From the NCBI GenBank assembly GCA_024696355.1, contig JAILGV010000166.1:1-64000 (forward strand): a stretch of 64,000 nt of DNA, given 5' to 3'. A program made the position numbers and the translations under genes. The notes beneath the pieces were generated by a model, which was given only the letters and a program-made list of their open reading frames with translations, made no database searches and was not told the origin of the DNA. The DNA is from Solobacterium sp. (GTDB lineage Bacteria > Bacillota_I > Bacilli_A > Erysipelotrichales > Erysipelotrichaceae). The stretch's first letter is position 1. Each line of letters begins with the position of its first letter. Below, in pieces: positions 25,898 to 30,878 of the stretch.

Positions 25898-26548
25898 ATG
25901 ATTGATACGATATTGTTTGACTGCGACGGACTGATGTTTGATACGGAAAGGCTTTCCCAGCAGCTCTGGAGAGAAGAGGCAGAAAGAAACGGATGCATTA
26001 TTCCGGGAAACTTTTTTGACCTGATTACCGGTGCCAATGCGGAGGAAGCACAGTACCTGATCGAACAGGATCCGCTTCTGAAAAAAACAGCGGATGTGAT
26101 CAGAGACAAAAGATTCGATCTGGATTACTGGCGCAGCTTTGAAAAAGATTCCATCAGTAAAAAGGGACTGAAGGAACTGTTCCGCTTTCTTGATGAGAAT
26201 CATTACAGAAAGGGAATATGCTCTTCCAGCGGAAGGGCTTATGTTGAAACATTGATCGGCACCGTTTCCGACGGACTGAATTATGATGTGATTGTCTGCG
26301 GGGATATGGTGACAAAAACAAAGCCGGATCCGGAAATCTTTCTGAAGGCTGCAGAAGCTGTCGGTGCAGATCCCGGCAGCTGTCTTGTGCTGGAAGACAG
26401 CAAAAACGGAATTCTGGCTGCTGCCAATGCAAAGATGCATTCCGTGTTTATCAGAGATACGATCGAGCCTGATGATGAAATGGCTGCGGCAATTGAATTT
26501 GAATGCAGGGATCTGCTTGAAGTGATCAGTCTGCTGAAAAAAATATGA
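25898..26548 (+). CDS. HAD-superfamily phosphatase, beta-phosphoglucomutase-like
   Basis: This 216-residue protein has HAD motifs ILFDCDGLMFDTE (Asp8, Asp10), SSSGRAYVE (motif II Ser), KTKPDPEIF (motif III Lys) and LVLEDSKNGILAA (motif IV). The helical cap between residues 15 and 85 is the subclass I type of beta-phosphoglucomutases and phosphoglycolate or sugar phosphatases. The exact substrate cannot be read from the sequence. AGGAG lies 6-7 nt before the ATG. It stands between secDF and murL. Confidence 0.85.
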   Translation: MIDTILFDCDGLMFDTERLSQQLWREEAERNGCIIPGNFFDLITGANAEEAQYLIEQDPLLKKTADVIRDKRFDLDYWRSFEKDSISKKGLKELFRFLDENHYRKGICSSSGRAYVETLIGTVSDGLNYDVIVCGDMVTKTKPDPEIFLKAAEAVGADPGSCLVLEDSKNGILAAANAKMHSVFIRDTIEPDDEMAAAIEFECRDLLEVISLLKKI

Positions 26549-26551
26549 CAT

Positions 26552-26581
26552 TTGCATACTTCAGCGAATCAATACTATACT
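26552..26581 (+). promoter_or_regulatory. promoter of the murL-murD2-recJ operon
   Basis: TTGCAT, an 18-bp spacer and TATACT, partly within the last codons of the HAD gene; start near 26588, just before the AGAGGG ribosome site. Confidence 0.7.
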
Positions 26582-26608
26582 TATGGGCAGTATCAGAGGG
26601 TATTTTTT

Positions 26609-27973
26609 ATGGATTACAACGAACTGCGAAGCCGGTATCCGGCATTCTATTATCATGAATTCTCGGTGATTGAGACAGAAGATGAACTTCAGATACTGTT
26701 TGATTTTGAAATTGAAGGTCTTTCTCATTTCAATCCTGATTTTATAATTCCGAAGCCCGCATCTGCGGAAAATATCGGAGATCTCCGTTCTGTGAGGGAG
26801 TGTGCATTTTCCCTGGGCATGATGGAGCTGATCAGCTACTGGAAGATAACATGCGCTCCCGAAGTTTATATCGAATGCGGCTGTCTTGACGACAGTCAGG
26901 TCCGCTGGTGGAAAAAACTGTATTTCAACGGCCTGGAAGATTTTTTCCGCCTGAACATGATCAATGCGGATCCGGATGAATTTATGCAGATCAGGTCGGT
27001 CGGAAATGAAATCGACGGTCTGAAGGATACAAGAACCTACCACGGAAACCTGATTCCCGTGGCGGGCGGGAAGGATTCGTTTGTCACGCTGGATATTCTG
27101 AAGGATATGAAGGATGACAGCACTGCATTCGTGATTAATCATGTGCGTTCCGCCGTCCGTTCTGCGGAAGCTGCCGGATACAGGGGGAAAGACCTGATTA
27201 TTGCGGAGCGATCACTGGACAGCCGTATGCTTGAATTCAACAAGCAGGGATACCTGAACGGCCACACACCGTATTCGGCCCTGACCGCTTTTGCGGCTGC
27301 GCTGGCCGGCATGGTCTATGCCAGAAAGTATATCTGTCTTTCAAACGAAGCATCCGAAACCGATTCGGAAGTCAGAGGAAGTTCCGTTGCCCAGCAGTAT
27401 TCCAGGACATTTACGTTTGAGCAGGATTTTAATTATTACATGGAGCACTATGTATCTTCCAAGGTGCACTATTTTTCGCTTCTGCGTCCTCTTTCCGAGC
27501 TTCAGATTACCGGAATCTTTTCAAAGCTGAAGCCGTACCATTCTGTTTTCTGTTCCTGCAATGCCGGTCAGAAGATGGAAAAATGGTGCGGACACTGTGC
27601 CCGCTGCCTGTTTGTCTGCTGCATGCTCAGTGCATATCTGACAGATGATGAACTGACCGCCATCTTCGGCACCGATATTCTGAATGATACGTCGATGACC
27701 GGACTGTTTGACAGGCTGGCGGGACTTAATGACAGAAAAACATCCGAGAATTCGGGTCTGTCGGATGAAGTCAATACTGCGGCGGCGATGTCCGTGGAGA
27801 ATCACCTGAAAGCCGGCAGGGAACTGCCGAAGCTGTATCAGCATTTTGTGCAGAGCCCGCTGTATCCGTTGTACCGGGGCAGATCGGTGAACTGGGACAG
27901 ATGGAACAATGAGAATATTGTACCGGAGGAATATCAGAAACTGATCAGAGCCCGGCTGGAGGAAATGAAATGA
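26609..27973 (+). CDS. murL: UDP-MurNAc-L-Ala-L-Glu epimerase MurL (predicted)
   Basis: MurL, described in Xanthomonas, uses ATP to invert the terminal L-Glu of UDP-MurNAc-L-Ala-L-Glu to D-Glu. This 454-residue protein carries the family's PP-loop-like motif LIPVAGGKDSFVTLDIL near 151-167, then KQGYLNGHTPYSALTAFAAALAG near 213-235, ICLSNEASETDSEVRG and VAQQYSRTFTFEQDFNYYM near 262-280, and a Cys cluster, CSCNAGQKMEKWCGHCARC. These blocks agree with MurL as I recall it. The strongest support is the next gene, which overlaps by 4 bp and is a MurD2-type ligase, the known partner. ATG 26609 has AGAGGG upstream. The function is predicted from family and context. Confidence 0.82.
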   Translation: MDYNELRSRYPAFYYHEFSVIETEDELQILFDFEIEGLSHFNPDFIIPKPASAENIGDLRSVRECAFSLGMMELISYWKITCAPEVYIECGCLDDSQVRWWKKLYFNGLEDFFRLNMINADPDEFMQIRSVGNEIDGLKDTRTYHGNLIPVAGGKDSFVTLDILKDMKDDSTAFVINHVRSAVRSAEAAGYRGKDLIIAERSLDSRMLEFNKQGYLNGHTPYSALTAFAAALAGMVYARKYICLSNEASETDSEVRGSSVAQQYSRTFTFEQDFNYYMEHYVSSKVHYFSLLRPLSELQITGIFSKLKPYHSVFCSCNAGQKMEKWCGHCARCLFVCCMLSAYLTDDELTAIFGTDILNDTSMTGLFDRLAGLNDRKTSENSGLSDEVNTAAAMSVENHLKAGRELPKLYQHFVQSPLYPLYRGRSVNWDRWNNENIVPEEYQKLIRARLEEMK

Positions 27974-29283
27974 ATCTGAATGTATGGAAACAGGAATTCG
28001 AAAACAAAAAAATCCTTCTCTGGGGTTTCGGCAGGGAAGGCAGTTCTTCCTACAGTCTGATACGTCTGGTGTGTCCCGGACAGAAGATTGATATCTGCGA
28101 CAGCCGCAGACAGGGTGAACAGGGACTGGAGAGAATCCGTTCCAAAACAGAAAATACCTGTGTCATGTTTGAGGATGAAGCTGATTTTTCCTCTTATGAC
28201 ATGATTCTGAAATCCCCCGGAATCGTGATTCCGGAAGGAACTGACAGACACAACATCACACAGGAAGCCGAGCTGTTTCTCAGGCACTACGGAAAGCAGA
28301 CAATCGGCATTACCGGAACAAAGGGAAAAAGCACGACGACAAGCATGATGCATGCCGTGCTGAGCGAAAAGTACCATTCGCATCTGGTCGGCAATATCGG
28401 CATTCCGTGCTTTGATGCAGTCAGGGATGCGGGAGATGATGATCTGTTTGCTTTTGAGATTTCATGCCATCAGCTTGAATACGGCAGATACAGTCCGCAT
28501 ATTGCTGTTTTTCTCAATCTCTACGAGGAACATCTTGATCACTACGGGAGCTTCAGAAAGTACGGAGATGCCAAAGCCAACATTTTCCGGAATCAGAAGG
28601 AGGATGACATCTGCATCATCAGCGGGGATCTGAAGGAGTATGCGTCAGAAATACCGGATCCGATTCTGATCGGCAGGGATATTACGTCTGAAGACAGGGT
28701 TCTTCATATTCCGGGACATGATCTGCAGGTGGAAAACTGTGCCCTGATCGGAAGCCATAACTATCTCAATATGGCAGTTGTATATCAGATTGCGCAGTAT
28801 TACGGAATCAGCGACAGTCAGTTCCTGCATGCCATGTCTCTGTTTTCGCCGCTTCATCACCGTCTGGAGGATCTCGGGACAGTGAACGGCATACGCTATG
28901 TCAACGACAGCATTTCGACGATCGGACAGTCATGCATCAAGGCAATTGAAGCCCTTGACAATGTCGGCACCGTGCTGATCGGCGGCATGGACAGGGGCAT
29001 CAGCTATACGGAACTGGAAGATTATCTTTACAGCCATCGGGAGTACCGCATCATCTTCATGTATGCGACGGGCAGAAGAATCTATGAGGAAATGCGGAAC
29101 AGGCAGATGCTGCATGACAGTCTTTACATTGTGCAGGATCTTCGCGAAGCCGTGCATCTTGCCCGGCAGCTGACGGAAAAAGGAAAGATCTGTCTTCTTT
29201 CACCCGCGGCCTCCTCATATGATCATTTTAAGAATTTCGAGGAACGCGGAGAGGTTTTCGAAAGGCTGGTGAAGGAGATATGA
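27970..29283 (+). CDS. murD2: MurD2-type ligase: UDP-MurNAc-L-Ala + L-Glu (predicted)
   Basis: This Mur ligase (437 aa) has the Rossmann-like N-terminus (KILLWGFGREGSSS), the ATP loop GITGTKGKSTTTSMMHAVL near 113-131, FEISCHQLEYGRYSPHIAVFLNLYEEHLDHYGSF and the C-terminal LLSPAASSYDHFKNFEERG. Canonical MurD has NDSKATN in the substrate region; here it is NDSISTIGQ near 316-324, the form I associate with MurD2, which accepts L-Glu instead of D-Glu. The ATG overlaps the murL stop (ATGA), so the pair is co-translated. It may replace canonical murD, which is absent from the mraY cluster in this window. Confidence 0.85.
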   Translation: MNLNVWKQEFENKKILLWGFGREGSSSYSLIRLVCPGQKIDICDSRRQGEQGLERIRSKTENTCVMFEDEADFSSYDMILKSPGIVIPEGTDRHNITQEAELFLRHYGKQTIGITGTKGKSTTTSMMHAVLSEKYHSHLVGNIGIPCFDAVRDAGDDDLFAFEISCHQLEYGRYSPHIAVFLNLYEEHLDHYGSFRKYGDAKANIFRNQKEDDICIISGDLKEYASEIPDPILIGRDITSEDRVLHIPGHDLQVENCALIGSHNYLNMAVVYQIAQYYGISDSQFLHAMSLFSPLHHRLEDLGTVNGIRYVNDSISTIGQSCIKAIEALDNVGTVLIGGMDRGISYTELEDYLYSHREYRIIFMYATGRRIYEEMRNRQMLHDSLYIVQDLREAVHLARQLTEKGKICLLSPAASSYDHFKNFEERGEVFERLVKEI

Positions 29284-30878
29284 ACTGGTCACTGATCGAT
29301 GTCAATGAGCAGTCCGTCTGTGAAAAATATCATGTTTCAGCGCTTCTGGGAAAAGTGATTGCGGCATCGCAGCTGGAAGCTGACCGGATTGATGAGCTTC
29401 TTCACGGTGATATGGAAGTGCATACGTCCCGCGCGGAATGTGTGCTTAAGTGCTGCCGGATGATCCTTGAAGCAGGGAGGAATCATCAGAAGGTTTTTGT
29501 GGGCGGCGACTATGACGCAGACGGCATCTGCGCAACCGCGGTCATGAAGGATACCCTTGACAGGCTCGGCATTGAAAACGGCTATTATATTCCGGACCGC
29601 TTCAGGGAAGGCTACGGTCTGAAGCCGTCAACCGTAGAGGCTGCCGCAAAGAAGGGATACTCCCTGATCATAACCGTCGACAACGGCGTAAAGGCCTTTG
29701 ATGCGATTGAAAAGGCGGCGCAGCTGGGGATCAGGATGATCGTTACGGATCATCATGAGACCGACGGAAATGTCAATGCGGACCTGCTGGTTCATCCGGA
29801 CTTAATGGAAGAGGAGTTCAGATATTATTCCGGTGCAGGTGTTGCACTGCAGATATCAAGAAATCTTCTCGGTGATGTCCCGTCACACACGGCACTTGCC
29901 GCAGTGGCGGCAGTCGGTGATGTAATGCCGCTGTGGAAACAGACACGCGTCCTGGTGAAAAACGGTCTGCGGGAAATCAGAAATAATGCCGTGCCTGCAT
30001 TTACGGCAATGATGAGGCCGGACTCGCCGGCAGATACGCAGACCGTGTCTTTCCAGATCGTGCCGAAGCTGAATTCCGTCGGAAGAATGAATGATATTTC
30101 CAATGTGAATACACTTGTGCCGTTCCTTCTGAGCAGAAATCCCGATACGGTCGGTGCATATGTGCAGCAGCTCAACAGAGTCAACGAAGCAAGAAAGCAG
30201 CTCAGTACGGCAATGGCAAAAAAAGCTGAAGATATCTGCGACGGGAGTGCTGATTTCCTGCTGGTTTATGATGAAAGCTTCCATGAGGGAATCTGCGGAC
30301 TTGTGGCCGGCAGGCTTGCGGACCGTCTTCACAAGCCGGTAATTGTTATGGCAAGAAACAGCGGCATGATCAAGGGAAGCGGAAGAAGCGTTGAGGGATT
30401 CAATATGTTTGAATTCTTCTCTTCCGGTTTTGATATGCTGCAGGCATTCGGCGGTCATGAAATGGCTGTGGGCATCACCGTGGCGGAACAGGATTTTGAA
30501 CGGTTTTCGGAAACAATCAGCCGGAAGATGAAGCAGACCGGATTTGAATACCGTGAAAAAGAAGAGCATGCCATACGGGTGCATCCGGATGATATTACGC
30601 TTGACAGCGTAATTGATCTGCAGGTTCTTGATCCTTATCCCAGGGAGCTTGCCAGACCCGTATTTGCCCTTGAGCATGCGGAATGCTTTAAATCATTTTC
30701 CTCTCAGAAAGTCGTCAGATACCATTTTGAAAACCGTGATCTGGGTTTTGACGGCGTTCTGTTTGCCAGAAAGAACATTCCGCAGTGTGAAAAACCGGAG
30801 ATTGTAATCGGAACTCCGTCCGTGAACAGATGGAGAAATATTGTATCCGTGCAGTTTGAAATTGAAGATATGAGATGA
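29280..30878 (+). CDS. recJ: single-stranded-DNA-specific exonuclease RecJ
   Basis: RecJ degrades single-stranded DNA 5' to 3' in recombination and repair. The 532-residue protein has the DHH-family motifs VGGDYDADGICATAVM near 78-93, TVDNGV and VTDHHETDG near 159-167, then AAVAAVGDVMPL and the DHHA1 signature GSGRSVEGFNMFEFF...AFGGHEMAVGITV near 363-402, followed by an OB-like domain. It is shorter than Bacillus RecJ, lacking the extra C-terminal domain. It overlaps the murD2 stop by 4 bp, so it is co-translated with the cell-wall genes. Confidence 0.93.
   Translation: MNWSLIDVNEQSVCEKYHVSALLGKVIAASQLEADRIDELLHGDMEVHTSRAECVLKCCRMILEAGRNHQKVFVGGDYDADGICATAVMKDTLDRLGIENGYYIPDRFREGYGLKPSTVEAAAKKGYSLIITVDNGVKAFDAIEKAAQLGIRMIVTDHHETDGNVNADLLVHPDLMEEEFRYYSGAGVALQISRNLLGDVPSHTALAAVAAVGDVMPLWKQTRVLVKNGLREIRNNAVPAFTAMMRPDSPADTQTVSFQIVPKLNSVGRMNDISNVNTLVPFLLSRNPDTVGAYVQQLNRVNEARKQLSTAMAKKAEDICDGSADFLLVYDESFHEGICGLVAGRLADRLHKPVIVMARNSGMIKGSGRSVEGFNMFEFFSSGFDMLQAFGGHEMAVGITVAEQDFERFSETISRKMKQTGFEYREKEEHAIRVHPDDITLDSVIDLQVLDPYPRELARPVFALEHAECFKSFSSQKVVRYHFENRDLGFDGVLFARKNIPQCEKPEIVIGTPSVNRWRNIVSVQFEIEDMR

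Follow-up and report, generated by a model that had tools for sequence, protein, structure and literature searches.

Two overlapping genes on a Solobacterium sp. contig raise the question of how D-glutamate (D-Glu) reaches the peptidoglycan of this Firmicute. They lie in a stretch of 64,000 nucleotides (GenBank assembly GCA_024696355.1, contig JAILGV010000166.1, positions 1 to 64,000), hereafter the window. An initial annotation had read them as MurL and a MurD2-type ligase and predicted an organism that does not depend on free D-Glu from MurI. In such a system, the MurD2-type ligase would add L-glutamate (L-Glu) to the wall precursor, and MurL would then flip it to the D form. Here, we propose that the pair is probably a member of a large branch of the MurL-MurD2 peptidoglycan system in Firmicutes, with an intact-looking ligase and an altered copy of MurL in the window. 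The two genes were located as follows.

26609 to 27973, + strand: murL-type gene, 454 amino acids (aa), ATG to TGA, with a predicted QueC/QatC-like PP-loop fold; an atypical copy
27970 to 29283, + strand: murD2-type Mur ligase gene, 437 aa, ATG start; the sole murD found in the genome

Profile searches agreed with both identities. The first protein matched the NCBIfam model NF041275 (MurL) with an E-value of 8.8e-58 and 195.8 bits over residues 78-413 of a 473-aa translation, far below the model's Xanthomonadales-based cut-off of 700 bits. The second matched TIGR01087 (MurD) with 281.5 bits, above the cut-off of 211.95. The annotated 4-bp overlap was confirmed as the bases ATGA at 27970-27973, and the motifs quoted for the pair, VAGGKDS, GYLNGHTPYSALTAF, and NDSIST, were all present. 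Since AGAGGG precedes the ATG at 26609, this start was preferred over the longer TTG start at 26552 in the open reading frame finder listing.

We then compared the residues of the ligase that bear on glutamate specificity.

28528 to 28530, + strand: E187, aligned with D182 of Escherichia coli MurD and E197 of Xanthomonas MurD2
28903 to 28920, + strand: NDSIST, residues 312-317, with I315 aligned with K319 of E. coli MurD
28981 to 28998, + strand: GGMDRG, residues 338-343, with R342 aligned with K348 of E. coli MurD and R358 of Xanthomonas MurD2

The double replacement E197D/R358K turned Xanthomonas oryzae MurD2 to D-Glu, and K319T allowed E. coli MurD to use L-Glu (PMC8788868). Both L-Glu-specificity positions of the X. 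oryzae enzyme, E197 and R358, are matched in the window ligase by E187 and R342, and its NDSIST is identical in Xanthomonas MurD2. By this residue pattern, the protein looks like an intact L-Glu-type MurD2. Ligases linked to MurL carried NDSIST, DDSIST, DDAIST, NDTIAT, or a similar sequence in place of the canonical NDSKxTN, so that the NDSK lysine is missing from them and retained in MurI-linked ligases; nearly all had GGxDR or GGxER, as opposed to the canonical GGxDK. A MurI-bearing relative (G002:C4:176222-178142; loci L064 and L091) has murI directly after canonical murD, mirroring the murL-murD2 linkage.

The pair was also compared with that of Xanthomonas sacchari, on whose plasmid NZ_CP010410 annotated murL and murD genes lie in this order and overlap by 20 bp. 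GGGKDS, NGH, SNExSA, VNHQ[YW]SK, SCN..WCxxCxKC, and KPFECVG are common to this MurL and those of Firmicutes, and the MurD2 of the pair contains NDSIST and GGHDRG. X. oryzae has no MurI (PMC8788868).

The window genome (G000) is a metagenome-assembled genome (MAG) of 2.63 Mb in 192 contigs, with 83% completeness and 3.9% contamination. Neither MurI nor a second, canonical murD was found in this 83%-complete assembly; the window ligase was the single MurD, and the other Mur-ligase matches were MurF, MurE, MurC, and MurT. Given the known role of MurT/GatD, the presence of MurT points to ordinary D-Glu/D-isoglutamine in the wall.

Of 196 genomes from this organism's family, Erysipelotrichaceae, 32 encode MurL. 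MurI-model matches were obtained in 149 of the 196, six of them weak (E about 1e-11 to 1e-7). A strong MurI was thus present in 143 genomes, MurL in 32, both in none, and neither in 21 (Fisher p 5e-23, relatedness ignored). A Mur ligase directly followed MurL in 30/30 loci and in four further loci retrieved manually, giving 34/34 family and near-family loci. Beyond the family, a scan of a genome collection yielded at least 568 confirmed MurL loci. The 80 that were kept for analysis bore the labels Erysipelotrichaceae, other Bacilli, Lachnospiraceae, Oscillospiraceae, Pseudobutyrivibrio, Mordavella, Enterocloster, and similar, and included two MAGs labelled Alistipes and Bacteroidales. A MurD2-type ligase lay directly downstream of MurL in 74 of these 80. 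No MurI above the cut-off was found in the 50 MurL-bearing collection genomes searched, one of which has a MurI-like gene at 7e-31. The expected absence of MurI alongside the pair is supported in the window genome, as far as it is assembled, and in its MurL-bearing relatives.

Some loci departed from this arrangement. No recognisable Mur ligase was seen in the fetched flanks of L136, L144, L146, L147, and L169. A MurL homologue annotated as a hypothetical protein (L179:2480-3889) lies on the mobilizable plasmid pLS1-1 of a Pseudonocardia isolated from Apterostigma, and its listed neighbours include no murD. MurD2-type ligases without MurL occurred in two genera that otherwise have MurI (L077 in G187 and L085 in G059), the frame of L085 being broken by a stop codon. 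The pathway has been reported in some Gamma- and Alphaproteobacteria and in rare actinobacteria (PMC8788868), and low-similarity orthologues have been noted in cyanobacteria, one fungus, and one amoeba (PMC5808125). We found no report of it in Firmicutes in the accessible papers; subscription papers and protein databases lay outside this search, and we make no claim of priority.

MurL has been described in the literature as having no known domains. An alignment of 108 MurLs revealed two motifs.

27062 to 27079, + strand: PP-loop motif A-GGKDS, residues 152-157
27557 to 27607, + strand: cysteine motif C317-x9-C327-x2-C330-x2-C333, which resembles the zinc motif of QueC

At position 152, 106 of the 108 sequences have G, the window copy has A, and Pseudonocardia has S. 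The cysteine motif takes the form C-x9-C-x2-C-x2-C or a longer-spaced one across the alignment, and that of QueC is C-x8-CxxCxxC (PMC13329287). PF06508 (QueC) matched neither the window MurL (E threshold 0.001) nor intact MurLs (E threshold 1), and MurL is therefore treated as a fold relative of QueC outside that family. Because a search of PDB sequences with a MurL profile returned just weak matches to TtuA and MnmA around the PP-loop, a fold comparison was needed. Models were built with AlphaFold2 from 48 aligned MurLs and compared by Foldseek/VIA-align; the predicted local distance difference test score (pLDDT) was 92 for the window MurL and 93 for an intact relative. The leading structural matches of the window model were QatC (Z 18.1, 327 residues), QueC (Z 13.2, 202 residues), and Cap9 (Z 11.8), followed by the remaining PP-loop enzymes at Z 7-8, and the intact model had the same leading matches.

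A survey of the QueC family of 2026 makes no mention of MurL, and describes carboxylate conversion by QueC as using ATP (PMC13329287). MurL consumes ATP to AMP, and its discoverers proposed adenylation of the α-carboxyl group (PMC8788868). Since QueC-like enzymes act on carboxylates with ATP and MurL makes AMP, the predicted fold supports that earlier proposal, and ATP-dependent carboxylate adenylation by a PP-loop enzyme is a plausible chemistry for MurL. H262 and C381 are candidates for proton transfer only because they are invariant.

The window MurL itself departs from the family mainly in two loops.

27341 to 27406, + strand: loop residues 245-266, SNEASETDSEVRGSSVAQQYSR, with N261A, H262Q, and K266R; other Firmicute MurLs have SNExSANES..VNHQYSK
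27737 to 27757, + strand: residues 377-383, KTSENSG, with C381N; other MurLs have KP[FL][ED]CVG

Of 81 columns with at least 95% conservation among the 108 MurLs, 13 were changed in the window copy; the median for other Firmicutes was 0 and the maximum 5. A whole-protein search supplied the family loci, so that they were not selected for the changed motifs. The 80 collection loci came from two short patterns, one containing NHQYSK, so that this motif is over-represented among them. Relative-rate counts against an outgroup showed an excess for the window MurL in all five comparisons (68:25, 57:31, 55:38, 72:27, and 65:32) and no excess for MurD2 (44:45, 35:60, 46:56, 37:52, and 48:51). In both models, confidence was lowest at the first changed loop (pLDDT about 50 in the window copy and 65 in the intact one), and the geometry of this loop should therefore not be over-read.

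MurL was missing altogether from some congeners. Profile searches found none in G031 and G126 (each a single contig, 99% and 97% complete, respectively), G076, and G194. Each of the four has one MurD with the MurD2 pattern, whose gene precedes recJ at the syntenic site with no murL before it (L076, L079, L082, and L083 in G031, G076, G194, and G126, respectively); the MurD2 tree places these genomes in two distinct clades. No strong MurI was found in them, with a weak MurI-model match in G194 (8.9e-8), and no D-amino-acid transaminase (DAAT) or other class-IV aminotransferase was matched in any of the four. In G031 and G076, searches for MurI, Asp/Glu racemases, and class-IV aminotransferases gave no match.

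Three other candidates were considered and set aside. A profile search for a divergent MurL in genomes with neither MurL nor MurI found none, the two fragments obtained having E-values of 9.5e-4 and 0.06 and the better one containing stop codons. As a hidden MurI, the Asp/Glu racemase family was represented by GGMGPxAT-type members in G126 and G194, which by this motif look like aspartate racemases, by a weak, distant member in the window genome, and by none in G031 and G076. Extra alanine-racemase-type genes showed no consistent excess in MurL-less genomes. Because MurI, MurL, and DAAT were unrecognised in near-complete congeners, two of them single contigs, an unrecognised enzyme may epimerise the residue or supply D-Glu. 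In this reading, which we hold to be less likely than not, MurD2 would have become uncoupled in this genus from a MurL that is altered in the window and deleted in four relatives.

The surroundings of the pair were examined in the window and in relatives.

25898 to 26548, + strand: HAD-family hydrolase gene, a neighbour upstream of murL that marks the syntenic site
29280 to 30878, + strand: recJ, a neighbour outside the pathway with a 4-bp overlap with murD2

Further upstream, the mraY cluster (rsmH, a PBP2X-type gene, mraY, and secDF) lacks murD, as had been annotated. The promoter attributed to the pair itself found no support: a simple consensus scan detected no sigma-70-type site at 26548-26609, and in relatives secDF-HAD-murL-murD2-recJ form one uninterrupted run. 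A PADLOC search gave no match.

Two observations weaken the initial prediction for this organism. N261, H262, K266, K332, P378, C381, and V382 are kept in 107/107 other MurLs, including Xanthomonas, and changed only here. A full-length class-IV aminotransferase closest to DAATs is encoded in the window genome. Other observations weigh against our own reading. Among MurL-linked ligases, E is frequent at the position of E. coli D182 and not universal, with D in G188, G430, Pseudobutyrivibrio, and several Clostridia, and the aminotransferase scores below the cut-off of its model. With the genome 83% complete, murI may be absent from the assembly only, and we came across no enzyme assay on a MurL-MurD2 pair from Firmicutes. 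Impairment of MurL is opposed by its frame, open over 454 codons with nonsynonymous divergence (pN) well below synonymous divergence (pS), the synonymous sites being saturated, and by the retained GGKDS, NGH, SCN, and cysteine motifs. A neutral pseudogene was rejected on the frame and the low pN, which indicate altered constraint rather than a dead gene. On balance, we judge it somewhat more probable that the epimerase is impaired or changed than that it is normal; if it is impaired, D-Glu would come from another source. The window gene is a MurL homologue by descent, and we do not claim MurL function as certain for this copy.

If the window MurL tolerates or compensates its changes, it would be a working epimerase and all D-Glu would be made on the nucleotide precursor, as initially annotated. 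The intact overlapping pair, the only murD, the lack of a murI match, the PP-loop and cysteine motifs, the low pN, and the unchanged predicted fold make this a serious possibility. It falls short of probable in view of the seven otherwise invariant residues, the acceleration confined to MurL, and the DAAT homologue. The latter (L058:8253-9146, contig C95, downstream of potassium-transport-like genes) is the only candidate found for an alternative D-Glu source in this organism. It could make free D-Glu from D-Ala and 2-oxoglutarate for a D-Glu-accepting MurD2 while MurL is being lost. Its score of 203 bits is under the model cut-off of 277, and its best PDB matches are solved D-amino-acid aminotransferases. 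The changed and accelerated MurL and the four congeners that kept MurD2 without MurL fit such a replacement. We nevertheless regard it as rather unlikely: MurD2 keeps its L-Glu-type residues with no rate excess, an intact MurL coexists with a DAAT homologue in the congener G155, and the MurL-less congeners have no match to this aminotransferase class.

An open frame under constraint, a kept ATP motif, and changes lying mainly in two loops would also be expected if the QueC-like scaffold now adenylated the carboxylate of another substrate, and scaffolds of the QueC family have repeatedly been put to new uses (PMC13329287). The 4-bp coupling to murD2 at the ancestral site and the lack of a new partner gene nearby make this improbable. 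An assembly or binning error, conceivable for a single copy in a fragmented MAG with some contamination, is the most improbable explanation of the atypical motifs, as 13 separate replacements without a stop, in an open frame among neighbours syntenic with congeners, are unlike random error. We therefore retain the Firmicute MurL-MurD2 branch with an altered window MurL. Of the initial interpretation, the identities, the linkage, the MurD2 residues, and the absence of MurI and a second murD are supported. The predicted independence from free D-Glu is not secured here, because the window MurL is the most altered among the Firmicutes compared; the DAAT homologue and the MurL-less congeners likewise count against it.

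By these results, a wall pathway known from few genera would also operate in a wide range of gut Firmicutes, a point relevant to the published proposal of MurL and MurD2 as narrow-spectrum targets. MurL gains a predicted fold and a plausible chemistry, and the altered window copy, together with the congeners that have MurD2 without MurL, raises a testable question about the route of D-Glu into the wall. Identity, linkage, specificity residues, MurI exclusion, and predicted fold were all read from sequence, and from them we infer the reaction in Firmicutes and its chemical steps.

Finally, the pair was compared with known systems. MurL shares with the PP-loop enzymes QueC and QatC the predicted fold (Z 13-18), the GG.DS loop, and the C-x9-CxxCxxC cysteine motif, and differs from them in its low identity (9-16%), the lack of a Pfam QueC match, and another partner and substrate. 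The canonical MurI and MurD route has in common with the window the MurD family itself; however, the window genome has no MurI match, and in its ligase the NDSK lysine is missing and E and R stand in place of the canonical D and K. For a DAAT route to D-Glu, a homologue is encoded in the genome, but away from the murL locus, and it is absent from the matches of most MurL-bearing relatives. Compared with the X. oryzae and X. sacchari pairs (XOO_1319/XOO_1320 type), the window MurL has 29% identity to Xanthomonas MurL over the matched part, belongs to a Firmicute host, and lacks the VNHQxSK and KPFECVG that Xanthomonas and other Firmicute MurLs have in common. The window pair nevertheless has the same gene order and overlap, with GGKDS, NGH, and SCN...WCxxCxKC in MurL and NDSIST and GGxDRG in the ligase.
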